A stretch of DNA of 64,000 nt from Phytoseiulus persimilis. Taxonomy: Eukaryota > Arthropoda > Arachnida > Mesostigmata > Phytoseiidae. The position numbers were made by a program, and so were the translations under genes. This document shows, piece after piece, positions 397 through 31,894 of the stretch (position 1 is the first letter of the stretch; each line of letters starts with the position of its first letter). Under the pieces are notes generated by a model. That model worked only from the letters and a program-made list of their open reading frames with translations, had not been told where the DNA came from and searched no databases. The DNA is taken from contig CM075104.1 in NCBI GenBank assembly GCA_037576195.1, forward strand, positions 19,670,211 to 19,734,210, in the 5' to 3' direction.

Positions 397-3300
397 GTTC
401 TACTCTCATCCCTGGGAGTGGGAATCCCAGGTCGAGAACTTCGGAAGTTTCTGCCTAGATAGGTTATCGGTCAAAAAAAAAGAGCGTGCCAGGGGTCCCC
501 CTGGTGAGAGTGGGGGTTGAAAATTTTCTCCATCTGTCGAGCTCCCGGACAGTCTGTAACTCACCGAAGAAACCTCTCCTTCATCTTCTCCCGAACCATT
601 CATGGAGAATATATGGGATACATCCATTCATGGATCCGATGAAAACAGTGAGATATAGTGGCATCAAGTGGAGCTTTTTATATCTTTATCGACCATGATC
701 GGTGCCTGCATGGTTGTCATCAACAAGAAGAGAGCTCACGTTTGAGTCGAAAGCTCAGGAGCGGAGCGTCGAGGTTTGCGTTTCTCGGGTGATTTGGGAT
801 CGATGGTATCAATCGATTGCCTTCACCATATATTATCATGTATTCTTCGGTTCCGAAGAGCTGGAGGTCTGATATTTGCGAGCTGCCTGCGAACGGCTCA
901 GAACCGTTCGATTGTGGGAAGCAAGCGGGGCATGATAACGCATCTTGGACTTTTTATCGATTTTTGATGCCACCGTATGCTCCCCGGAGACTCGAGCGGG
1001 CGAATTGCCGCAGCGCTTCAAGCTTTATTGGCTGAATATGGTTCTGGTCATCCGGAATCATGTCCCATGTATCACGAACCTCCACTGACTAGAGATTCGT
1101 TCTGAGGAACCAAACGAATTAATATTCGGAGGGGATCCTCATTGCTCCAACTACAGAGCTAACGGCGCCGTCAGATCAAGAACAAAGCTCGTGCTGCGTG
1201 CCGAGTGAGCCCATGAGCCCCACTTCACGCTGAATGCGATGAGGGCAGTTGATTCGCGGGTTTCTGGGTTTCGGGTTCGTTGGGTTCGGTTGGCAATGGT
1301 ATAACTAAATCGAGAGCATGTGTTCGTGTTTGGAATGCTCCACCCCCGACCGTTCCTTCCCTAATCCACCCCGTCTCCCCGAAACGAGCACTCTTCCCCC
1401 TAAGCTGTCATGGATGATTTTGTCGTCCATTCGAGCAAACGTGTCATTAGCCGTATCAGCTCTCACAATCGGCTGCAACCCGGGATGAAGCCAGTTGCTC
1501 TTGGGTAGCGTCGCACGCCACGTTTGCATATCATCGATCCGCCGCGCTTCGATCAGAATCTCCATCGATGACCCCTCACACCGATCAGTTATTCCGATTC
1601 CAAGAAGGGTTTCCAAAAAATCAGGCCGAGCTCCAGCGCCCTTATTGACGGCGAGCCTGTGATACTAGCTCATCTAAGCTCATTTTCTGCCTGCCCGGCG
1701 GCCAACGACTCGACTGACCGACGCCAACTTCGGTCGAGGACGATCGCGTGGAGTAGGCAGCCAGACTGCATTAGTCTCGTTCCTCCCCGTGATATTCGAA
1801 TGAGAGCCTTCCGGTGCGAGAGGGGAGCAGAATAAACATAACACAAGATAAACATGACAACTTACACCGACTCACATTCATGAGTGCTCGTGCAAACATC
1901 TGCCGTACTCCGCGAGCATCGGGGAACTTGTTCTCCGCACGAAACGCAAAAGACGGACGATACGATCCGCTCGTTTCAGACACACGTGTACAGATCCTCA
2001 CTAGGATCCCTCGTCAGGGCCGGGAAATAACTTCCAGGCGTCTCGCTTTCAATGAGAGACGGGGCTCTCTGGCGGAATGCTCTCATCCAACCATCAGTGG
2101 GTTTTTAAACTGTTTGAGTGAAACTCGAACGTTCCTCGATTAGAACAAGACGAGGGAACGACGGATGATCAAACAGGCCCTTCAGATGGAGCGTTCTCGA
2201 TTCGGATCGACGGTGATCCAATACGTTGGCGCCCTTCTGAAGCTCGCGAAGTCGAGTATTCTCGCGCTCATTAGTGTGATGTTCGGCTGGCGTTTTCGGC
2301 GAGAAGCGCTCGACACCGATTCTGCTGACTTCGTCGACGAAATATTCATCGTCGCTGACATCCCACGAACGTCTAGAGTTCCTGGATGATCGAGCCACGA
2401 GCCGATTCGGTGACACGCAGAGCATATGACATTCGATTCTCCCATCGCATTCAGTATTTCCAGTCAGCGGTATCGCACTTCCTCCGATACTCTTACACTC
2501 TCTGTCTGGAACCCCGTTGAATATTTGTTCACCGTGTTGTCTATCTTGCATTTTTCACCATTAGTCAACAAAAGGAAATAAATCTATCACCAGGGACGTG
2601 CCTCATGGTATCAGGAAGAACGTCCAAGCAACTCCGCCTCTAGCCACCTCGAACTCATGGACTTTATTGGATACTTCATGGACTAGGGTCAGCAAGCTGA
2701 TCGTGGTTGCCCTTAGTTAACAGACTTCTGAGAGTCCGATCGTCCGAATTTCCACCGTCGTTCTGTATTTCGCATAAGATAGTCATTGTGAGTTACCCAG
2801 GGAACGCATCCTGCTCAAAAGAATGTATTGAGGAGGGGCGGCACGGCGCATGGCTCCGGGCAGATATTTCTCCGAAGCAGCCAGGGGCGGTCGATCCGCG
2901 GATCATAGATTTTCTTCCAGCGCAGAAATACGCTTTATTCCGAGCGTGCATATTGGGGCGTAATCGGCAGTGGAACGAAGAGATCGGAACGGAAGAATCG
3001 TACCGGGAGGCTTTAAAGATGGCGGCCGAAGCGGGGGGAATTTGAAGCTGATTTGGATTTCATTTGAGTTGTATCACAAATATATGATATCGCTCGAGTC
3101 ATGGAGCTTCCCCTCTTGAAGATTCTCAACTTTGTTCAGGATGGGCAAAACGTTCTCACTGAAACATTCAGTGGCGACTTGCAATCGCTTCGTTCTTCGT
3201 AGCAGCAGAGTCTACCGGGAAAGCTGCAGTTGCGATGCGAGGAACCACTGTCCATGGCGCATTCAGTATACCGACGATGATCAACATAGCGGGTTGTCTT

Positions 3301-5218
3301 GTGAAGTCTGTCAAGCATGCTTCAACGCTTTCCAACACGTGCACATCTCATACATCGACGGAACCAGTATGATTAGTGGGGGAACATCGCACACGATAAA
3401 CGAACGCCCAAATAGTACTACAATTGAAGATGATGAACCATTTCGCGGCCTGGATATGATTTTCTGTTGAGACTAACGACAGCTCTCCCCCGTCTGTATG
3501 TAACCGATTGATGAACCAGTGAAACGAGGACTCCACCGGTCTATTCCATGACCGTCTTCGGGACACTTTCCTCTCCGAACGGTCGTGGGACAACAAGACT
3601 TGATCTTCTCAACGATGTCAACGAAAAGTGGTAATGGAGACGCTCAGCGGAACGCCAATCTGAGTTCGCTGCCATATCAGGCTAATTGTACCACGCGCTG
3701 CGATCGAGCCATCGGTCTTCCGAAAATCCGCGAAGCGGGGGCCGCCCGCTCCGTTGGAGGGAGATCCCGGCCAGCAATAGAGGGCGTAAATTGCCGAAGT
3801 GTCAGGACAATCAGACAACTCGTGATTGACTCCATGCACGCGTCCCTTCCCCAAGCCAACGACCACGAGCAAACCCGCTCCAACCGGGCCCGTTGTGCAA
3901 AGTCACCCCGTACGCCATCACTATGCGTTGTGCGCTCCGCTTCCCACTGAATGAGCTCCCGGGAAGAGGGAGAGTCTCGTGGAATTCCGCTTCCCACGGA
4001 CGAGTGGCTCCTGGGAGCGTTCATGGACAAATACGGCAGCGGAGCAGATAGTCCTCCATGACCAACTGGGACTTATCGCGACTTCAGCGGCATGATTGAC
4101 CAGCCGCTGTCGTGAGAGAGGCGCGTGCATGGGGCTTTTTCACAGCGGTTTCACGCGCGAAATCGAGTTCTCGCTCGGCCCCCCATTCAAATTGCTGCTC
4201 CCTGAAATGTGAGTCCTCAAGAAACCGACGCCAGGATTCAACTCAGAGAGGGAACGGCATTCACTCGGCGCACATATCCTTCGGCTGGTGGTGGAGGGCG
4301 GCGTCAGAGCTTGGTGCGTGTTGTGTTTGTCGAATGAGGGATCTGACTCACGTTCCGCAGTAGGGTCCTGTTCTTAGTGGCGAACTCGGTTGCGAAGGTG
4401 AACGGCGGCATTCTTCCGCCACTGTTGTTTACCGCGAGCGCGACTCTCGGTCATATAACGCGTTCCGTCACCCGCTCGCTTAGTCTCGAGCCTTCGGGAC
4501 GACCCGGAAACCGACTCAGCGACCCGACCCACCGACCGAGGTCTACGGAGGTCGCTAGCTCGAGTGATCTCGGGTGACTCGAACGAGCCCGAGAATGAGT
4601 TCCTGCAACTCCACGGGCCGGCTCTCAGTCGTCGAGAGCTCAATGCCTTCCCGGAAAGCTGACTCGCTTGTCAATCTTCGCTATGACACGCTCAAGCACC
4701 GAGAGGACTCCGACGCCATCTCTTCTCTCGCGGGAGGGAGGCACTCCACGTACTCGAAGCACCGTAAACACTCTCCGGTGTCGGGAGAGACGAGTTACAT
4801 GATTCGTTAGCTGAAACGTTCGCAAGCTCCAGAGACCGTACAGAATACTTCGATCCGGGGAGCTCGTCCGCATTCTTCAGCTAGGCTGCGAAGCGCAGCC
4901 CTCTGCGTCTTCGAATGGCCATCATATAATTCTGTAGGAGACTGATCAAGATTCCGTTCCGACCCTATCGGAGGAGCAGTATCCGCTGGCTTGTTGCTGA
5001 TGAAGTTGTGAGACTGCTCTGATTGTGAGACGGATATTCCTCGCCGCGTGTCAACCCTTTGAGTTTCAATGTGGCTGCAGAAGAAAGTCCTCACGTATCA
5101 GATTACCTGAGACGACCACAGAGCATCTTTTGTCCCCGGAAACGCCTCTCCTAGTCCCCTACCTTTTTTGATCGCATACGGTACCTCTCACGGAGTCGGA
5201 AGAATTCAGCTGGAAAAT
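397..5218. other. no supported gene
   Basis: No frame here joins to a recognisable domain. The longest frames (for example 148 codons on the minus strand at 2105-2551, with plus-strand frames overlapping it) are within chance length, and several are open on both strands at once. No tRNA, rRNA or clear transposon ends were seen. Small genes or individual exons cannot be excluded. Confidence 0.5.
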
Positions 5219-5470: not shown

Positions 5471-8400
5471 TCTCGGCCCCCAGCGACTACCGGGCTGACG
5501 CATTCCTCATGATGAGCTCGCGGGAATCATTTCCGAAACCATGATCGCAGGGCTCCACAGAACACGAGCAGTCGTCGGATGAACCTCGTTCGAAAGACCG
5601 CTTACACAGTCCTGCCCATCGTTGCCATCTTCGGATAGATGCTCGTTGATTATGAGCGGCGCTGCTAATGCATATCACTAACCGACAACATGTACGACCC
5701 GTTACGTACAGCTGCCTTCACATTTATTATCTGCAACCGAAGCGAACCACAGCGACGGATTTGTGATCATCACCAGGATGCGACACGCCGTGTGGCGAAA
5801 TTCTCGAGCCGTCCCGCGACCCATTCCTCCCAAGGCGCTCTCGGATTTCCTCGGACTGTTCCATCAGCATGAACTTGTTTTCGGCTCGCTTCCGCTTCGG
5901 AGTACCTCAACGTCCCAGCCTCGACCTTTCAGTGTTTCGGGCCGGTCTTGCCATCGGCAGGAAAAGTCTCAGATCCCTCCGGCTGCAGCGAGGGAAGGCG
6001 CAAAAACAGCACGATCATGAACACGTAAGCGAAGTACGAATGCAGTGAGTTTCGCTTTGCTAAGGCTGCAAAAGCCAGTGGCAGATAATGTAGCGTGGTA
6101 CGTGGCGGAGACGTTGATGAAAGGCGTTTGGTTGGGCTCCCTTTTCCCGATAGTGCTGCTCTCACCAGTGGAGCGTTCCGATGATGCGATTTGGGGCAGT
6201 GAACGAAGAAATACATTCAATCTGAATCGAGGCTGACCGATGGCTCGGTAATCGAGAATCTGTCGGAGCCCCGCTTGACGCGGGTGAGAACCAATGTGCG
6301 GGCCCCGCAGCTTCGGCATTCCCGGCTCGTTTTTATTCCGATCGACGACGCATCTGAACGGAGCATCTTCCACCGAAATATAGGGAAGTGAGGCCAACCG
6401 CTTCTCTTGTTGAGAGGCTCTTCTGGATATCGCGCTCCGGCGCAACCTCTACTGGAGGATGCCTTCTTACTACATTTTAGTTCGTCTCCTTCCGCCGCTG
6501 CCTATCGAGGTCACTGAGGTAGAGGTCGCTCGCCGCAGCCCTTTCGGGACTGCTTCCGGTGAACTTGAGAAGCGTTCCGCTGCCTGCCTAGATATTGGTT
6601 CAGATCGTTCGAGGGCACAGTTTGGATCCGCTCATTCATCGAATCGGTTCCGATCATATTGAGTGACCCGCGTTCCGAACAGGGCCGAGCAGAGGAAGAA
6701 GGTCGAAAGGCGGTTTCTGATGTGACCGAGAACCGAAAAGTCAAGGGATAAGCACCGTTACATATTCATGGGCGGCTGGCGGCTTTCTACACAAAAATAA
6801 TGACATCAGCATGGGGAGGAGAAGCCCGGCCAGCCAGTTATCTCTCGGCTCTCGGGCTAAGACCTCGCAGCTCCGCTGTCCTGGGTGCAGGCTCAAGACC
6901 TGTGCCTTCCCTCCGTCCGGGAGCTCAAATCGCTGCTCCGTTTCTCAAAGAAACGACGTCGACCGTTTTTTGCTCACCTTGGAAGAAGAATGGATTATTT
7001 GGCCTACCATGACTACCAAAGCTCTAAGTACGTCCTCTGCCCAAAAAATGCTCACCTCTATTCCCTCGATTCGAGAGGGGAATGGTAAGCTGGGCGAGAT
7101 ATCGTTTTCACTTTTAGCAAGATCTCGCTCCTATACGGCAACGTCACGAAACCGGGACAGGGGAAAACGGGCGAAAAGCTCAAGAGTTGATGCGCGAGCG
7201 TCTTCGGAAACTGAACAAAATAGAGAGCATGTTAGCGTGGCAGAGGAAGGTCTGGATGAGTTCCTCCAGCCATGAAATGAGTTATGGGGCGCTCAAATTC
7301 GAGTCTTGCAACACGGCCGGCTCGCCGCCCACCGACGAAATGGTCGGCAAAAGCTTGAGCGAATCGTACCTCTTTTCAGGAGAGACTCAAAACCTCCGCT
7401 CGAGAACGAGGATTTGTTCCCATTGTCGGCGATGGCGTCCTCACTGTCGTGTTTGTCCAGATCCTTTCGTAATTCCATCCCAAGGAGTATATTTCGGAGT
7501 TTCGGCAGTCAGAAATCCGGCGAAATTCTCCTGTGAGTCTCCTTATCTGCGTTCCGGTCTCCGCTTACAGATCACGTGGGAGGTGAACCGTGCTGGCAGA
7601 AGCTGACGTGCAGTTCGTCGGCTCATCTGAAGGACGTACAGGGGTTTCGAGTCAGGGTCTTATGCAGAGGACTCCACCGAAAATCTCTCCGTACCCGTTT
7701 CTCGATGTGTGGGTGAGTGCCTCGCCCCGTGGGTGGATGTGACGGCAGACGGGCTTACTTGGCTGCCTAATGAGTGGAAGGACTCAGATCGAGGAAGCTA
7801 ATTATTCGTGCAACCTAGACTAACTTGATAAATTTTGCTGCTTACAAGCTTCTCTGTCTCCGGAACCAATTTTGGGTGACTCCGAAGAATCGATTATAAT
7901 CCGCTGTGAGAGGGTTGTGAGGCGTCGGTCCGGAGTTCTGGCTCTGGAAAGTTGCCTCCGGATCGGGATTCGGTCACTGTCCTCGGAAAAAATGCAACTG
8001 TTTGTTGATGACTCCATGTGCCGAGTCCCCTACTCTCGATCCTCGAAATCAGGTCGGTATCTCAGTCATCAACGATGATGTCATCATATAGCTGCCGCCT
8101 TCGGATTGGCCGGGTGCCACAGGACGGAAGAAGTAGTTGGTTTTCGACGATCGGACTTGCCGGCGACTTCCTGACCGGAAACGCCATTTGAATGAGCTCT
8201 GAACACGTTGTTTGGCATCGTGTCTGAAAAAATGCCCAACTCCGCCCATCAAGTATTGATCCAATCGATCGAGCCCAGAATCCTCCTTGAAGGTGCTCAG
8301 GAACATCAGGAATGATGCGAGCTCTAATGGAGTATTCGATCTACCCTCTGGCATCGAGACCAACTCCTGGAAACTTGCGTCCCCGCTCTAAGAAGACAGT

Positions 8401-11978: not shown

Positions 11979-12278
11979 AGACTATCTATCGATGCGTCGG
12001 CTCGTTGGCCGTGTGGCATAAACCAACGCCTTGGGTGCCACGCTAAGCTAGCAATCGCGGGTTCGATCCCCGGCCGACAACAAAAATTTCTTATGTGGTG
12101 AAAAGAGGATTTAATTTGTATCAGAATTAAATCTGGACCATCTTAAGACCCAAGCCCACCGCCCGCAATGGGATTCGCGAGGCGATAGGGAGTGTTACTG
12201 AAGCAATACCGAAAGGTGATCCCAGGACACTTCTGAGGGCTGAATGGTTCAGCCGGAAAACAAAGACTATCTATCGAT
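11979..12278 (+). mobile_element. tRNA-derived SINE with 15-bp target-site duplication
   Basis: The insertion (11994-12263, 270 bp) is bracketed by an exact 15-bp direct repeat, AGACTATCTATCGAT, at 11979-11993 and 12264-12278, the hallmark of L1-type target-primed insertion. The 5' head is tRNA-like. An A-box-like TGGCCGTGTGG (about 12006-12016) lies in a D-arm with TTGG/CCAA pairing. A near-consensus B-box, GGTTCGATCCC, lies at 12060-12070. GTCGGCT at the head pairs with GGCCGAC at 12071-12077 like an acceptor stem. The anticodon-arm analogue has an irregular loop, so this is not a working tRNA. The body is unrelated to tRNA and contains a perfect 9-bp hairpin at 12108-12133. The tail ends in a short A-rich run. 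The exact duplication suggests a fairly recent insertion. It would be mobilised by a LINE elsewhere; none is present in the window. Confidence 0.85.
12060..12070 (+). promoter_or_regulatory. RNA polymerase III B-box of the SINE
   Basis: GGTTCGATCCC matches the type-2 pol III B-box. It sits about 50 bases downstream of the A-box-like element, a spacing typical of tRNA-derived promoters. Confidence 0.75.
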
Positions 12279-14770: not shown

Positions 14771-14780
14771 GGATCCCGCC

Positions 14781-14882
14781 GGATTTGAGCGGAGGCCCGA
14801 TTTGAGCGGAGACCCAATTTGAGCGATTGCCCGATTTGAGCGAAAAGCCGATTTGAGCGAAGGCCCGATTCGAGCGGAAGCC
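14781..14882 (+). repeat. six 17-bp tandem subrepeats, left terminus of copy A
   Basis: Six consecutive 17-bp units, each containing TTTGAGCG or a one-base variant and differing from one another by 1-5 bases. The order of variant units is mirrored in copy B, so the array was inherited as a block rather than expanded independently in each copy. Confidence 0.9.
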
Positions 14883-15375
14883 AACAGCGGCTGTGGTACC
14901 GTTGCTTGCGCTAGAGTTGGGTCCGGCACCTTCTGATGGCGATCATGACTGAAGAAGAGCTGCAGCCTGCAGCCCTCGTTTCTTGAGCCAGTACCATAAA
15001 ACACTGCTCATGGCACCGACGAGAGCCTGCGTTCTCTGAGTCCAATTCCTTGAGGGAGTTCAAGACACCGATCGCTTATTTGAAGGCTTGCGCCTCATCG
15101 AAGAGCTGCTCTCAACGCCGCTCGCTACGCTCGCGGGGCACTCCGATTCTCGCTAGTCGGTGAGCCGTAAATGGCGGCGACGCAAAGAATAGTAGTGGTC
15201 AATGATGAGCGAAGGTTGCCCTCTGGTCGAATCCACGAAGCTCAGCGGAATACTTGCTTCGCACTCCGGCACAACGCGCGCAGCCAGTCCTGCCAGGCTC
15301 TACCTGAAACCGATACATTCGAAAGGAACGAAGTGAACCAAGTTCGAACCACACCAGCGTTTTCCGCACCGCTGC

Positions 15376-15495
15376 TGTCCGCTCAAATCGGGCCTCCGCT
15401 CGAATCGGGCTTACGCTCAAATCGGGCCTTCGCTCAAATTGGGTCTCCGCTCAAATCGGGACTCCGCTCAAATTGGACCTCCGCTCAAATGTAGC
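15376..15495 (-). repeat. 17-bp tandem subrepeats, right terminus of copy A
   Basis: About seven units in inverse complement of the left array (CGCTCAAA core), ending in CTCAAATGTAGC, a terminus shared with copy B. Confidence 0.9.
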
Positions 15496-17022
15496 CAGGC
15501 ACGTTGTGGACCGTGATGGAATCATCCGCCCGCAAACCGGGGGCGCCTAAAGGCTGATCTTGAGCGATCCTCGTGGAGAGAAAGCCAGCGCGAGCATCTG
15601 TAACGGGAGGATGGAGGCTGCTTGTTCCGAATTCTCATGAATCTGGGACCGTTACGTCGTCTGAGGCGTGACGGAAACGCTGGTCGAATAGAAGCTCGAA
15701 TTCATTGAGGAAGAACTAGGCGTATGAGCCTTGGAGGAGCGGCGCGTTTCCGCTAATGGCTTTTCTGATTGAGGCTAAACGAAGCTTGTCGCTCTGGTCG
15801 CGGCCGCATGGACCATTCCGAAGAATAGGTGGGACTTTGTGAATTCGCTTGCGTTGAATGACTCAGACTCGCTCTCCATTTCGCGTCGATGGATGCTTTC
15901 GGTCCAATGTATTCCGGGCGCAATCAATCGGATGCTCACATTTCATCGCATGAGTTCTCAATATGAAGTTCCAAATGACCTGGAGAGATCTGCGTTCGAG
16001 GGAACCTGGAAGCTCTTTGAGATATCGCGCTTGTTTGCCGAGCAAGCGCCGCAAACTGTATGGAACATACCGTAGGAACCCAGCTCGTTTGTTCCGAGGG
16101 CACTCTGATAGAAGTAGTACCGCCAGCTCGTGACAATAGGGAGCCCCAAATAAGGCTGGACAAACATCAGCCAACGGCATAGAAGCCCTTCGACGACTTC
16201 AGCTACCAAACACGATTGTTGTCACGACTCCCCCCGCGGAATTATGCGGCAAGCGCGATTGACGGCATCGGCGCTCCGATCCTGCTCCTATCTACGGTAT
16301 CTTCATCGCTGCACAAGTCATCCTTTTCGAGGCACTCTACAAACCTTGGACAAATCGAATGTGCCCTCCCCATTGAACAAGACGAAGGAACGCGACTTCC
16401 CATTGCAATAGATCGAGACTTTGAGAACGGAAAAATCGATCATTTTCACAGTTTGTTTTCGAGTGGCTCCGCGTGATTGATTCAGTAGCTTGGTGGAGTC
16501 CAAACCTCCCTACTCTGTCCTTTGACAGGCTTTCTCTCGCGCTACATTTCAGATCTGGGGACAGAAAGGATACGGAACAGGCACGGCTGGTTTGGCTCAA
16601 CGCTGATTACTTGAGGACTCCGAAGCACGATTCTGTGACTGGAAAAGAAGAAAAACCGGAGTTGAAATCGCGTTATCAATTGCTAGGAATAACCTCACCC
16701 TGCAGCTGACTATCTCCGATACGTAAGGGCTCGAAATAAGTCGCTCGAAAATTCAACCGCATCGTTGGACGCTCCGAGCGGAATGATCTAATTTCGAGAT
16801 CAAGTCAAAGACTCTTGACATTCCCACACCGACCAGGCCCCTCCCCTCGCGTCGAGGTCGGTACTCATTCCAGTGGTTGGAGAGTCCGCTCCGCAGATAT
16901 CGATTGAGCTGAGTTGATTATTCAAAGCTACGCCAAGTGGCTCTGAGGGAGAGCCATCGCGTACGCAGAATCAGCTTGAAATAGCCCGTTTGTTCGACAA
17001 GTCCGTGCTTCCTCAAACGGCT

Positions 17023-17044
17023 GGGGGGGGGGGGGGGGGGGGGG
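17023..17044 (+). repeat. G22 homopolymer tract
   Basis: Twenty-two consecutive G residues. Such a run can form a G-quadruplex and is a polymerase slippage site, so its exact length is also likely to be an assembly uncertainty. Confidence 0.95.
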
Positions 17045-20000
17045 AAGCCGTCGGCGTTAGATGTGGGATCCTTCTCCAAGCGGTGCTCCGGAGATGCGGG
17101 GATAGTTCGCTATCGACGTTCCGTTCCCAAGGTCGTTCCGGCCATCGATGGAATGATCCTCTCTTCCAAGAACGTGTGTCGACCGATCTCGCCATGGCGG
17201 ACCCGCCAGGAATTTGGCAACTTGGTAACCGCTTGTCAGCTCGGAAGCTGTTACGAGTCCGACGTTTTCCTTGTTCGACGGATTCAGCTGTATGTCTAAT
17301 CGTGGCCTTGGTTCAACCACAGCTCTTCGACTGCATAACCAGCTCAGTTCGGCGGGACTGGTTGACGGCAAGACGAGTTTGGAGTGAGTATTGATGTTAC
17401 AACAGTGTCGCTCCGAGAACCTTAAACACGTGGGTTTATGTCTGAAACGTGCGAAACTCTCTCTCGTAGATGTCGGGGAACTACATTACGGGAGAGTTGT
17501 ACTTCGCAGCGCTGAAGCCGTAAACTCCCGCCAGTATATTTCCTGCCGAGCTTTGGGCTCTTTGTGTATTCTCACACGGTTGGCACAAGGAGGAAGGTTT
17601 CGGCACAAACGAGATCATGGGATCGGGTCTCCTCAGATGAGACTCTCCCTGGAAACACGCTCATCAATATCCAGAAGAGGAATCGATTGACGAGTGAGTG
17701 ATAGCTGGAAGTGGGAGCTTGTTCGAAGGGCCTCGTTTGAGCGATGCTGCGACAAGAGGCTTTCTGATGAGAGAATCCCGCGACTTGGATCAGATCGACG
17801 CCGTGATCTGATTTCAAAGTTTCGACGTGAATTCCGACATTCATCGTGGAATCCTAATTATAACGTATTCCGACAGTGTTCGCGATCGGAATTTCGAGGC
17901 AGTGGAGTTTAGCGTTGGAAAAGAGTCAAACGGGCGGATAACAAGGAAATGCTTTCACTTCCGAGTGCTGCCGTGATGAGCTTTGACACACAATCCTACA
18001 AAACAAGATTCTGCCCTGCCAGTCGCAGACAACAAACGATGGAGTTCGTGTCACCGTTGGCATTCAATTATGCATCGCTTTCGCGTTTCTTCCACGCGTC
18101 ATGGATGCGTTGGGGTACCCCCTGACGACGCCCCGATCCCCAGAATCCTTCAGGGAACATCTTAGTAGCTATGAGACTCCTCTCTCATGTCACCCACGCG
18201 TGACACGCTTATAAATCAGGAGCGATTTGTAATACTTGTTCGTGGGAGTAAATACTCGAAAACATCTTATTGTGGATGATAACGCCACGCCTGCCTGACG
18301 CTGCTGTTCGTTTGAAACACGCGATCTTCCAAGAGAGCGTCAGCAGTGGTGTGTTCTCAGTCATGGAGGTACCCTGCAGAAGAATTCCCTCCGAAGGGAC
18401 GTCACGGCGACGCATAAAGGATCAGCGGGAAACATCGCCGGACAATTGTTCGGCGGACAAAAACCTGCCATCCAAGGTCGAGATTTCAACTACAGTTTCG
18501 TCTAGAAATTTTCGTCTTGATTCAGGGTTCGTGACGGCCATTTTCTTGTGACAAGCGAGGACAAGCTTTTGAGATCGAAAGTGAATCGGAAGTGGATTTT
18601 CAGCTCTGGCTTATGTAACCAGAAGAGTTCCAGCCTCAAGCTCAGTCTCGAGGTCTTCCAAGATTATATTATTCATTGAAGTCGAGGAAGGTTCGGTTAT
18701 AGAATTCATACCCGAAACCATCATATCGCCGATGGATATCTCTTGGAGGATTTACATGGCAGACGAGACGCTCGCTTCGGGTGCTCCACCTTCGAGCACC
18801 GTCGGTATTACATGCGAGAGACTTCGTCTCATTTCTCGCGGTGTTTTTCCATGAAGCTTCCCCGGTGGAGTGAATTGATTCGAGTCGATCTCGAAATCTA
18901 GGACTCGGCTCTCTACCTAAGCTCCGTGATGATCGGTGTTCTTGTATTCCTAGCCGTGGCTCCGATATTTCTCTCTCCGCTGACATGGAAAGCCAAGAGA
19001 CCCCGAAGTCCTCATACGTTTCGAGAGCGAGAATTCGATCTGGCGGAGCCGCAAGCCCGATTCTTACGCCCTCTGTGTACTCTCGGTGACCGAGAACTCA
19101 AGCGGAGACAGATCAGAACTCAGCGCGAGGGAGAGAGAAGCTAGAACCAGGGCGAAGCTAGGACGTGCACACGGACCAGTGATGCCGAGGAACCAATATG
19201 CTCTTCGAAGATGTGGAACTACCAACTCAAATTCTCTTTGTGAACCGTAACGGTCAGGGGCTTCTCATAACGAGGACTTTTCCGGATCCGGTGCGCTGCG
19301 AATGTTTTCTTTGCGTGTGTGAGCCTCAGACCAGAGAGCATTGACCTCTCTCCGAAAAACCAGTGTTACAGCATTTGGGAAATCAGGAATCGTCTCCTTC
19401 TGTTGAAAAGAAACTTGCTCTTGAAACAGCCAGGGATGGCATTTCGAAACGTCCCTAATGGTGTCCCTTGTTCGTGCGCAAACAATGAACGAGTGCCGTT
19501 TCGAGCGGTTGCTCTTCGGGGATTAGGACGTCGAAGCGATCAAAGGGGACGTTATCCAAACGAGTCCCAAAGGACGAACATCGCCGTTTTTACAAGATGC
19601 TCGATGTGGTTTCGCACCCAGCCGGTCAGCCAGCCACAGATGGTGACCATTCGTCAGTTTGTCCGCCTGTCCAGCTGAACGGCTGAACATTACGCGTAGA
19701 ACGACTCTGACGGCAGGCCTTGCCGCTCGCCTAAGTGGTCCGCTCTAACAGGACACGGGACCGACAGCGACCGAATGTGACGACACGGCCTTCGGAAGAC
19801 GAACGAGAGCGCCGTCGCTCTGATCACAGAGCTCGAGAAGTTCTTTTCCTCCAGAGCAACAATACAAACTACGTTAGGACTCTATCGATTGTTTTTCACT
19901 CCTGGAGGGAGGCCGGGGGAGCACGGTGTGAGTACGCCGCAGTTTCAGAGTTAACAACAGCCTCGGGAAGCTCCTGAAGAGGAATCTCCAGGGCTGTATA

Positions 20001-21150
20001 ACAATCGGAATTTAACATCCCGTCCTCTCTCAAACGGTTAGGACCTTTCCCTGAGGAAGTAGGCGACCTCCCTGTTCCGGAGGGTTCGGCCCGATCAAAG
20101 AGGTCAGCCTCGCTTACAGTGGATGGATAAAGGATACACGAACCGGCTGGAGTGGGACGAGGGTTTCTGTTCACGTTTCAGCAGTCACAGGAGAAGAGAA
20201 GTGGCCCTCGGGCAATCTACGTACGCAGAGCATGACTTCACGCCTGCTCCAATTGAGTCCACCAGGAGCGTTTGTTAGGGAGACATGAGCGAATACGCCT
20301 GGGCATGTAGAACCCGATGTCGGTATGGGAATAAATCTCCCCGGCAGCTCGGTGGGAATATTCAAACGAAGCGGTCAGCTGTGACTGATCCCCCTGCGCG
20401 GTCTGATTCAAAGGGAACTATTCGCCACGTTCGTGGATTTGAAATTTCCGCAAGTATGGAAAAAGGATTCGCTCCCAGGGATCCTCCACATATCAATCGG
20501 GAATGCTGGCTTGCATGATGAATCGGTCCGGGGTCGCAGCTCCCGGGGAGGGGGATCCCCTCTTCCACGAGGGAGATTGAACGCCAACTCAATCAGCTTC
20601 AACCACGGTCTCGCGAGTCGGAGCACTGATTTCTGAACGGGACTCCATTCACGGCGGAAATATCGAATGAGATCGTCCCCCCATAGCTGTGCAAAGTAAT
20701 CTCAGATCGAGGGGATCCGTGGGACTGGAACGCTGGCTGAACGAGAGACTCGAACCTCCACTGTTTGGCTGCAACGGATTCGTGGACGTCGAATGTTAAT
20801 TAGAAGGAGGATTACCGCGCATTTTGACATTCGAGATTACTTCCTCGGCAGAATTTCCGCTCTCCGCTCCTGAAACTCGGATCGCACTGCTGTCGAATCG
20901 TGCCCGCGTTCGTGGCTCACTATATGAACAGCTCGAGTGGAGAATTTGAGGATGACAACTTCCAAGTGTCCTCGACTCGAGCAAGAGCGGAAACTTGAAT
21001 CCTGGCGCGATTCCTCCACCCTCGTATCGATCCGCCGAGTCGATGGTGAACATGACACTCTGCGTGCCCGTCCCGGATTCGCGAGATATGACGCTTCCCT
21101 CGAGCGCTGCAACGGCACCGAAACGTTGCCTGGAAGAGACGACTTTCTGC

Positions 21151-21154
<4 letters not shown>

Positions 21155-21181
<27 letters not shown>
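21155..21181 (+). repeat. TC dinucleotide microsatellite
   Basis: An uninterrupted run of about 13 TC units. The overlapping minus-strand frames that read as Arg-Glu repeats are translations of this tract rather than evidence of a protein. Confidence 0.95.
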
Positions 21182-24100
21182 GGAACGCGCCAATCGTCCC
21201 CAGGAGCAGCAAGGGAGGACGTTCTATGAAGACGCCGCGATAGCCAGCGGGATGCCACTACGAGGCACCAAGAGAAGAGAGTCCGCGGGGGAAGATTTTG
21301 CACGAACTTTCCAGCGTTGGAGTTTCCTCCGGCCCTCTGATGATCATCGACACTTGAGTGAACAGAGGGGGAGAATCGAATCCGGAATTCGTCACCGCTG
21401 AGTTCCTTCGAGCTTGGGAGTGGCGAGTTTGACTCTTCTGAAAACCTGTTCAGTTCTGAGCGATTTTCACACCGACGAAGTATCAACTTATAGCTTACGA
21501 AGGTGAAATCTTAATCGAATCGGAATGGGAGAGACATTCTGGAAGTTTCCCGGAGAGGAACTCCAATGATTCGAGCAGAAAGCGAAGCGATTGTTTGCGA
21601 TTCCCATTCTGACGTCATTTGTCATCGCAGCCCAATCGATCGAACAAAAGACTCGAAGATTGTTTCTCGGAGGCAGCTTCCGCGACTACAACTGGTTGCC
21701 GCAGGCTTGCGCAGTCGGGATGGGACGCGTACAACGTCGGGAGAGGATATCCGTTTCAGATCCTCGGAAGTCGGTGAATCAAGCCCGACTTCCTCGAGCG
21801 TAATTTGTTTAGCATAACTTTTTCATGTCGGTTTTTATGTTCCCGTCCTGAGAGAGCTGAGCAGCCTTTTCGCGGGGAGGAACAAGCGACGAGGGTCAAG
21901 TGGAAGTACGGCCAGTCCGGACTCTACTTCGGATTGAGAGACTTTCGAAGAGAAGACGAGAAAACGCTTCACTTGGTTTCTCTGTCGAGCGGCGGAGTTT
22001 TACTTCAGCTCGGCGGCGCTGGCTCTGCATTCTAGTCAGTCACATTTCCGCTTTTTGCAGCATCGGATCTGTCAGATCCGGAATTCTCCGTGGGGTTTTA
22101 TGGCGGGCTGTAAAATAAATCAAGACTCTGTTTCATATCTGGCAGACGGACATGTGCTCTGCCGGAGTGTTCAAGTATGATCGAGCAGAGAGTGAAAAGA
22201 GGATTATTTGATTGACCGAAAGGAGACAAGCCGGAGGGCAGGAGTTTCGATTTAATTTCCTGGGGATCGGGCTTCTGCTCCCGAAAGGAACGCGGTCAGC
22301 CCACTGGTGCGCCGCCGCCGCCGCCCAGAGATTGGAGTGTTCGCTGATTGAGGAGGGACTCACCACCTTCCCAATTTAGAATTCAGAACGCTATTTTAGT
22401 GCCCGGACTCGCGGTCTCTTCACCAGTCTCTCACACACAACCCAGGCGAGGCTGCTGTTGCATCAATAACTGATAAGCTGGCGTCGTACTCCCTCCGGCC
22501 CATGTTTCTCAACATTAAAATCCGCGAGGCAAACATTTGATGATTCGCGACGATGCGCAGACATTGTTTTCGCCGATATCATGGACAAACAACCCCAGGG
22601 TCTCTTCCCCGCCCGCCGTAAGAATGAGCACCGAAAACGAGATGATGGAATCGGACTTGGATCCAGCTTCAACGAGACTTCAAGTCCCAACGACGGAATT
22701 CGCAAGGAGTCTCATCGTCAGGGAACCGATGGTCTCCGTGATACGAATCTGAAAAGAATTCTTCTCATTAAGCTCACTGCTTCGACTGAATTCTTCAAGC
22801 GCTGGGATGCGGAGCCATATTGGGCAAAAGAATTCCGGCCGGTCCTGCTGGCCGGTCATCACTCTGAGTGATATGTGGAAGTGAATACTCAGTTTTGCTT
22901 CCTGCATTTTTGTTGAGAGAACAGTAAATGAATACTATGGTGACGCGGGGAATTGAGGCATTGTGTATGCAATGGGACCCTCGAGGAACACTGCAATGAC
23001 CTAGCAAAGTCTCCTCAGCGATGCATCTGTGTTTGTCTCACAATCGGCGAGGGTCTTTACGCGAGAATGTCCTCAGTCTTCCAGAGATAACTGTCCTTCG
23101 CTCGGTGGGATCCGACTGTGGTCAGCTCACTTGTCCGCAGTGTTCCTCCTCTGTATTCCCTCATCTATCGAGCTTCGTCCCGTAATTCTGTTGTTTGCCC
23201 TCGCTATCGGGAATCTGCACGCGATATCGAGGTGTTCCGGGATGGAGCTAGCGAGAAACCGATAACGCTCCACCGTCTCGATTTCGCACTTCTGCCCGTA
23301 CAGCACCTCTTGCTAGAAGTTTTGGAAGGTGTTCCGCCTCGAAAGAGCGAAGGCCTTACTCAGCGCTCGTGACTTCACCTGCATACGTCAAACTGGACAG
23401 AGTTACGTCGTCGAAGGTAACGATCCCATCTGCTACAGCCGACCCCACCTGAGTATTACGCCCCACTGCCGGCTAACTAGACATCGTGAGACTGTGAGCT
23501 GCCAAGCGTAGCGAGAATTCGACGAACACCTAAGCATCGGAACGGATGTTCCGCCATTAGGAACAAATGATTGAGAACGGTCATGAGCAAAATCTCGCTA
23601 TCGGTAAAGGCGCACGAAGCCGGAACGGGTTTTATCGTCTATAAACATGCGAAACGTCCCCAACGCGACCCCGTCTGGTGCGGGGGATGATTGGACCGAA
23701 TGGAAAACCGGCAGCTTTGCAGGGCTTCACTCAAGAAGTCCCATCATCAGTCACTCGCTCATCGATCGGTGTCTCCTTTGATTTCCTCGAAAGAGTCTTC
23801 CAAGAGACTCGGTGAGGTAACCTGAGAAAAATGCTTCGTGCTGCTACTCGCAGCGGAGGTTGATCCGTATTCGATGGTCACAAAAACTGCATGCGCGGTT
23901 CGCTTGCTGTTGAACCTGTGACCGCCACGGAGGGTAGAATCTCTTCCAGCATGAGATGCACCCTTTGATCTCGAAATCGCTTCCGAGGGGGCAACATATC
24001 GATGCATATGAAGCCGGGCACTTCATCCGAGTAGCCTGAGGCGGAAATGCATTAAAAGCTCCTTGCGACCGAGCGCCGCCGCGTTCGGGTTGACTTGGAA

Positions 24101-24540
24101 ATCGAAAAGTGAAATTCGTATCCTGATTCAATCAGCGGAATGTTTCCCGCCTTCCGCACTCGACCGACTCCTTGAAATAGGAGACTCTGCCGACTCCGAC
24201 ACCAACTTCTCCCCGATTCTTGGCAGTTCCAGCTCCCTGGGTCCAAGAGCATCACTGAATCACGTATCCTGATCGAGCGACAGGCGCTGGATTAGCAACG
24301 ACGATTAGTGGCAACACGACACACTTTCCAACGTTGCCATCTCTCTCGGGAGGCTCCCTTTAGTTGTCAGCTTACGTTTTTTCTGAGCTTCCTGATCAAA
24401 CTTTCGATGATTCGACAGGCCTCGTTCGCTTGGACAAGAAGTAGTAATGTGGGGATCACGTTAGGCATCGGGCGTTTTTGTGAATAAATATAATTCACTC
24501 AGCCACGCCAATGGAAAATAATTCCCGTTACATGGAATCC

Positions 24541-24549
24541 GACAGAAAT
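24541..24549 (+). repeat. 9-bp target-site duplication, left
   Basis: GACAGAAAT abuts the left end of copy B and recurs exactly at 25280-25288. Nine bases is the duplication length of Foldback and Mutator-type elements. Confidence 0.7.
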
Positions 24550-24556
24550 GGTGCCG

Positions 24557-24674
24557 CTACATTTGAGCGGAGGTCCAATTTGAGCGGAGTCCCGATTTGA
24601 GCGGAGACCCAATTTGAGCGAAGGCCCGATTTGAGCGAAAGCCCGATTTGAGCGGAGGTCCGATTTGAGCGGAC
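24557..24674 (+). repeat. 17-bp tandem subrepeats, left terminus of copy B
   Basis: About seven units with the ATTTGAGCGGAGG core, the inverse counterpart of the right array of copy A. Unit variants appear in the same order. Confidence 0.9.
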
Positions 24675-25167
24675 AGCAGCGGTGCGGAAGACGCTGGTGT
24701 GGTTCGAACTTCTTTCACTTCGTTCCTTTCGAATGTATCGGTTTCAGGTAGAGCCTGGCAGGACTGCGTGCGCGCGTTGTGCCGGAATGCGAAGCAAGTA
24801 TGCCGCCGAGCTTCGTGGATTCGACCAGAGGGCAACCTTTGCTCATCGTTGACCACTATCATCCTTTGCGTCGCCGCCGTTTACGGCCCACCGACTAGCG
24901 AGAATCGGAGTGCCCCGCGAGCGTAGCGAGCGGCGTTGACAGCAGCTTTTCGATGAGGCGCAAGCCCTCAAATCAGCGATCGGTGTCTTGAACTCCCTCA
25001 AGGAATTGGACTCAGAGAACGCAGGCTCTCGTCGGTGCCATGAGCAGTGTTTTATGGTACTGGCTCAAGAAACGAGGGCTGCAGGCTGCAGCTCTTCTTC
25101 AGTCATGATCGCCATCAGAAGGTGCCGGACCCAACTCTAGCGCGAGCAACGGTACCACAGCCGCTGT

Positions 25168-25271
25168 TGGCTTCCGCTCGAATCGGGCCTCCGCTCAAAT
25201 CGGGCCTTCGCTCAAATCGGGCCTTCGCTCAAACTGGGTCTCCGCTCAGATCGGGACTTCGCTCAAATCGG
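25168..25271 (-). repeat. 17-bp tandem subrepeats, right terminus of copy B
   Basis: Six units with the CGCTCAAATCGGGC core, the inverse counterpart of the left array of copy A. Confidence 0.9.
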
Positions 25272-25279
25272 GCGGAATC

Positions 25280-25288
25280 GACAGAAAT
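25280..25288 (+). repeat. 9-bp target-site duplication, right
   Basis: Exact repeat of the nine bases at 24541-24549, directly after the last position similar to copy A. Confidence 0.7.
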
Positions 25289-31827: not shown

Positions 31828-31889
<62 letters not shown>

Positions 31890-31894
31890 TCTCT
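31828..31894 (+). repeat. TC/GA microsatellite upstream of the Ras-like gene
   Basis: A 67-bp TC tract with one interruption near 31885. On the gene's own strand it reads (GA)n and lies about 320 bases upstream of the preferred start codon. In arthropods, GA tracts near promoters can bind GAGA-type factors; that role is inferred here from position alone. Confidence 0.95.

Follow-up and report, generated by a model that had tools for sequence, protein, structure and literature searches.

Two Foldback Elements in the Window

The DNA analyzed here, referred to as the window, is a stretch of 64,000 nucleotides from Phytoseiulus persimilis (contig CM075104.1, positions 19,670,211 to 19,734,210). 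It contains two copies of an element of about 730 bp, each bounded by arrays of a 17-bp unit that face in opposite directions. Copy A lies on the forward strand from 14772 to approximately 15502, its 3′ edge being placed by eye, and copy B (730 bp) occupies 24550–25279 on the reverse strand and carries both end motifs. TRF detected period-17 arrays at all four ends: in copy A at 14778–14876 (5′ array on the forward strand, units of the ATTTGAGCGGAGGCCCG type, score 121) and at 15378–15490 (3′ array in inverse orientation on the reverse strand, score 163), and in copy B at 24561–24673 (3′ end of the element, forward strand, score 163) and 25169–25273 (5′ end of the element, reverse strand, score 140). 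Two such copies had already been reported in a preliminary description of this DNA, which set their outer limits at 14771 and 25279; the latter agrees with our data, whereas the left limit is placed here at 14772. The interiors, for which about 20 mismatches in 493 bp had been given, are identical in 460 of 480 aligned columns (95.8%), and the mismatches counted are indeed 20. Among the 40 copies of the family compared below, the closest relative of the copy B interior is 99.0% identical and that of copy A 97.1%.

Copy B is flanked by a perfect 9-bp repeat, GACAGAAAT, forming its left (24541–24549) and right (25280–25288) target-site duplications; an exact 9-bp flanking duplication of this copy had been described before. 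Copy A lacks an intact duplication, and its terminal motif at the 3′ end is altered, so that the automatic search missed it. A single strand of copy B is predicted to fold into a long hairpin with −207.7 kcal/mol compared to a mean of −132.7 kcal/mol for shuffled sequences (n = 20; z = −16). The foldback architecture is supported. Searching the window against Rfam yielded no match at gathering scores, and no tRNA was detected in the window. TRF also reported runs of the dinucleotide TC at 31828–31894 and 21155–21181.

A Dispersed Family with 9-bp Target-Site Duplications

The genome searched comprises 181 Mb in 127 contigs, four of which are 28–55 Mb in length (contigs are denoted by C and a number in the following). 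A pattern of two 17-bp units matched the genome 382 times (187 + 195) with up to one mismatch as compared to 0 matches for the reversed control, so the arrays are not a product of chance. Full or partial copies of the element are dispersed at at least 40 places (best 40 of 156 candidates scored), and these 40 copies, namely A, B, and L009–L046, were analyzed together with their flanks. Pairwise identity of the interiors ranges from 79 to 99% with a median of 93.5% (780 pairs), a spread that points to copies of several ages, some of them fairly recent.

Outside the arrays, the family has conserved asymmetric end motifs, GATTCCGCCCGA... at the 5′ end and ...TGTAGCGGCACC at the 3′ end (also written GATTCCGCC... 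and GGTGCCGCTAC...). Allowing up to two mismatches, the 5′ end GATTCCGCCCGATTTGAGCG was found 85 times in the genome and the 3′ end CGCTCAAATGTAGCGGCACC 74 times, with no match for either reversed control. Of the 85 5′ ends, 49 can be paired with a same-strand 3′ end no more than 30 kb away, in 43 cases at a distance of 244–883 bp. The number of units per arm, counted as unit cores with up to two mismatches in 30 copies, varies from 1 to 12 at the 5′ end and from 2 to 18 at the 3′ end with medians of 6; insertions, deletions, or rearrangement affect the counts of L020, L021, L027, L032, and L046.

For 30 of the 40 copies, both ends were found; L011, L035, L037, L038, L039, L041, L043, L044, L045, and A, in which an end was not located, were left out of the duplication count. 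A perfect 9-bp direct repeat abuts the ends in 17 of the 30 copies compared to none of 870 swapped flank pairings, and a perfect 10-bp repeat is present in none of the 30. With the edge fixed, at least eight of the nine bases match in 19 copies (swapped pairings, 0/870) and fewer in the other 11. Shifting the edge by up to two bases brought five of these 11 to eight of nine, 24 of 30 in all, the 870-pair control having been run with no shifts.

Empty sites were searched for with the joined flanks of 13 copies, keeping one duplication; for 12 of them, the best 40 of 148 candidates were scored. Paralogous sites lacking the element, with matches that span the junction, were detected for four of the 13: L019 (C1:44803603, 99% over 177 bp), L024 (C4:502430, 96%; C1:2254524, 91%), L016 (C3:36068317, 94%; two others at 90-91%; one gapped, 80%), and L017 (C1:47966442, 82% over 111 bp). 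The joined site of L017 falls within a frame that resembles reverse transcriptase, with an RVT_1 match of 24.3 bits (E 3e-5) that stays below the curated cut-off of 29.6; the translation spans the joined site, and the frame meets a stop further on. L020, giving gapped matches of 74–78% and ungapped ones of 86–90% that reach only 17-18 bases to the left of the junction, was not counted, and the other eight copies matched only their own flanks with no empty site among the matches listed.

The 9-bp duplications (17/30 versus 0/870) and the empty sites (4/13) identify the 730-bp elements as a transposon family. The preliminary description had looked for support to many copies with 9-bp duplications, which the genome contains, and had named as contrary outcomes only two copies with no empty sites, or a satellite or segmental duplication including flanking DNA. 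The former does not apply to a family of at least 40 copies with empty sites. The latter might be suggested by the arrays, which are tandem repeats, and by L038, L043, and L044, which share flanks and represent segmental duplicates. For the remaining 37 of the 40 copies, however, 400 bp of flanking sequence revealed no mutual similarity at E 1e-5, and the 9-bp duplications likewise argue against a satellite or segmental duplication; the empty sites refute this explanation, and we assign it practically no probability.

The 400-bp stretches flanking L043 (C3:34202152–34208679) and L044 (C108) are more than 99% identical, suggesting that C108, a small contig, represents either an alternative haplotype of C3 or a duplicate of it that was not collapsed.

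Longer End Pairs

A genome search with the profile PF10551 for Mutator-like (MULE) transposases gave 220 candidates, 150 matches of which were scored. Among these 150, no transposase was found between paired ends of the 17-bp family. Two of the 85 5′ ends have a scored MULE match within 15 kb, and neither is a plausible parent. The one at C3:34131106 concerns a 466-bp copy that has both its ends and is located next to an element of the L049 type described below, and at C1:51921052, no 3′ end was found within 30 kb; the matches are regarded as chance or a neighbour.

Six end pairs exceed 883 bp. L048 (2.9 kb), a copy located 1.4 kb past the right end of the window, is interrupted by another inserted element with the duplication GATGGAGAG, and in L020 (1.4 kb), unrelated sequence separates the interior from the 3′ end as seen by eye; both were therefore rejected as longer relatives. 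The element inserted in L048 (approximately 410–2420) has long inverted repeats, likewise recognized by eye, and an ORF of 135 aa. Two pairs of 2.1 kb are L043 and L044, each other's duplicates. The pairs of 6.8 kb (C3:16864036–16870813) and 22 kb on C3 have one 3′ end in common, and between their ends, no MULE was found among the matches listed.

Foldback Elements Encoding a MULE Transposase

A near-match to the 3′ end of the family, 2 kb from a MULE match, led to L047, an element of 3916 bp (C3:305654–309569). It is flanked by a 9-bp duplication (GCATTCTAA), carries a 16-bp unit in inverse terminal arrays, and contains ORFs for FLYWCH (E 1.6e-8) and MULE (E 2.7e-11) domains, which are separated by insertion of a repeat of approximately 125 bp. 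A MULE copy at C4:23184704–23186838 matches L047 as far as position 3792, adjacent to the right array. The dispersed 125-bp repeat, interrupting the L047 transposase at approximately 2796–2922, also occurs in the window at 12146–12264 and is 93–98% identical at at least 20 places among the matches listed. Inspection by eye showed that one end is A-rich and that an 11-bp direct repeat flanks the sequence on either side, and based on these features, it may be a small SINE; an Rfam search with the repeat gave no match. A related copy at C2:5791907–5795686 is without the repeat as judged by coordinates. Beside the L047 element, an ORF of 235 aa (L047 5186–5893) is enclosed by inverted repeats at 4996–5150 and 6334–6497; its motifs are reminiscent of a Tc1/mariner transposase.

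Searching the genome with the L047 protein yielded L049 (C3:357621–361032), an element of 3412 bp with the duplication ATTTCCACG and inverse arrays with periods of 15–17 and 32 bp. L049 contains an uninterrupted frame of 496 codons from stop to stop (475 from the first ATG) with FLYWCH (E 6.4e-11) and MULE (E 9.9e-11) domains; putative DDE residues, picked by eye, are D215, D277, and E412 in stop-to-stop numbering. Between the L047 and L049 proteins, identity amounts to 62% in a stretch of 264 aa and to 51% in one of 186 aa. A PDB sequence search with the L049 protein gave no match at E up to 1. Near-full copies of L049 are present at C3:32303657 (96%) and C3:34132974 (94%). In addition, coordinates indicate at least eight shorter places in which the beginning of L049 is fused to the final 700 bases, for example C3:5523396–5524334, where L049 1–200 is joined to 2690–3412. 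The architecture of these deletion derivatives is like that of the 730-bp element.

The preliminary description had suggested looking for a longer relative with a transposase between the same arrays. Relatives with a transposase do exist in L047 and L049, but their arrays consist of other units, and among the 150 scored MULE matches, none was found between 17-bp arrays.

The domains of L049 bear on an assignment to Rehavkus/NOF-type elements. Rehavkus has 9-bp duplications and a minisatellite before its 3′ end (PMC6446971), and the 730-bp family shares such duplications and minisatellite-like arrays. Rehavkus transposases, however, possess a PHD finger (PMC6446971), whereas for the protein of L049, a relative of the 730-bp element, the Pfam search listed a FLYWCH finger but no PHD finger at E up to 1; moreover, the 730-bp family carries arrays at both ends. 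On this comparison with Rehavkus, an element of the Rehavkus/NOF type is considered very unlikely.

An End Block Shared by L047 and the 730-bp Family

In addition to its own arrays, L047 contains a recognizable version of the 3′ end of the 730-bp family. L047 1012–1216, located directly inside the left 16-bp array, aligns with the 3′ end of copy B (71% in 205 columns, E 2e-29), and L047 1003–1056 with its terminus (78%, E 2e-7). In the window, the homologous parts are 24545–24580 for the terminus (88.9%, E 2.7e-5) and 24629–24776 on the forward strand for the subterminal part (76.9%, E 7.5e-16). The aligned block comprises the terminal motif, approximately three 17-bp units, and more than 100 bp of subterminal DNA, and a form likewise reduced to three units is seen in L048, a copy of the 730-bp family.

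A nested insertion as a single event in L047 was considered and rejected since the array-plus-block arrangement recurs at at least eight places, L047 included (best 40 of 1271 candidates scored; matches starting at query position 54 or before and running past 500). It is readable in L033, a second L047-type copy, in which the motif is shortened and the block is the same as in L047. The exact variant end CGCACAAATGTAGCGTCACC occurs at five places in the genome, four of them inside L047-type matches. BLAST detected nothing related to the family's 5′ end in either L047 or L049, no right-hand counterpart of this end in L047 (a partial resemblance seen by eye was dropped), and no block of the L047 type in L049.

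The sharing of terminal sequence with L047 also speaks to the preliminary assignment to the Foldback/Galileo class, of which the Galileo part is not supported. An element of the Galileo type, which belongs to the P superfamily and is marked by a THAP-domain transposase and by long ends with internal repeats, would have similar termini, namely inverse arrays and a short middle folding back. The duplications, however, are 9 bp here versus 7 bp for Galileo (PMC3573991), and L047 encodes FLYWCH and MULE domains. We consider such an assignment extremely unlikely. A search with the P-element profile PF12017 gave 0 matches, with 14 of 14 controls equally silent, and does not enter into this judgment. 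The 9-bp duplications and the related elements point instead to Foldback elements of the FLYWCH-type MULEs such as Tm1 and Muta1.

The array ends of the 730-bp family have probably turned over. One way would be that the ends of Foldback MULEs change as an array within an array, the terminus of one family being the subterminal block of another, so that new ends could emerge by addition of an outer array or exposure of an inner one. We put this forward tentatively as a possibility; if true, such turnover might enable transposon families to exchange one transposase for another or to evade it. Alternatively, the 730-bp family might descend directly from an L047-type element instead of a lost parent, the subterminal block of three 17-bp units having become a terminus after loss of the outer 16-bp arrays. 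This would fit the block adjoining 16-bp units in both L047 and L033 and the presence of only approximately three units in L048 as well. On the other hand, the 5′ end and the remaining interior of the 730-bp family were not found in L047, and the change may have run in either direction. Such a direct descent is considered less likely than not.

Relationship to Known Elements and Proposed Mechanism

Taken together, the 730-bp family very probably consists of nonautonomous Foldback transposons of the FLYWCH-type MULEs. It is a further family of a known kind of element and not a new kind. Tm1 is a Mutator/Foldback family of root-knot nematodes (Meloidogyne) and resembles the 730-bp family in asymmetric short end motifs, composite inverse arrays with variable unit number, mostly 9-bp duplications, and many MITE-like copies (PMC3169594). 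Its units are 13–15 bp long, and an autonomous member encodes a FLYWCH+MULE transposase (PMC3169594), whereas no autonomous copy is known for the 17-bp family; unit and interior of the latter differ from the Tm1 sequences as printed.

Muta1 and other MULEs of Aedes aegypti, designated “type2 Foldback,” likewise combine a terminal motif with short subterminal tandem repeats and 8-9 bp duplications, and they have nonautonomous derivatives with other interiors (PMC5225508). Muta1 contains a FLYWCH finger as do L049 and L047, and its DDE residues (D214, D283, and E419; PMC5225508) are placed similarly to those picked by eye in L049. The Aedes units differ in measuring 9–15 bp compared to 17 bp here; Muta1 was shown to move in yeast (PMC5225508). 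Tetris/DAIBAM of the Drosophila virilis group are also nonautonomous foldback elements; they have 8–10 bp duplications and ends in common with another family, and no autonomous parent is known for them, but the repeats inside their ends are approximately 220 bp long (PMC4079207). Galileo, although resembling the 730-bp family in internally repeated inverted ends with changing repeat number, differs by its 7-bp duplications and P-type transposase (PMC3573991). A 2026 survey of arthropods describes MULEs as widespread, and nothing on the 17-bp unit was found in its abstract and results (PMC13359780).

By analogy with these elements, the 730-bp family is probably moved in trans by a MULE; that a transposase of the L047 or L049 type does so is a guess. 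As in known MULEs, the repeated units would be bound by a DDE transposase carrying a FLYWCH finger, which would pair both ends and then excise the element, to be inserted by joining to 9-bp staggered cuts. The 730-bp element would contribute the ends only and may have been derived from an autonomous parent, not found in the genome search, by loss of the transposase region. Unit numbers could shift by slippage or unequal exchange.

By itself, the 730-bp element is ordinary selfish DNA, and the family is a well-delimited addition to the animal Foldback MULEs. In this genome, foldback MULEs that differ in their array units occur side by side with deletion derivatives and a transposase gene free of interruptions, a good natural setting in which to study the role of the repeated units (transposase binding, end pairing) and the way such ends change. 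At one place, C3:331108–337010 (partly L033), one copy of the L047 type, several of the L049 type, and one of the 730-bp family lie within approximately 6 kb, forming a cluster of foldback MULEs.
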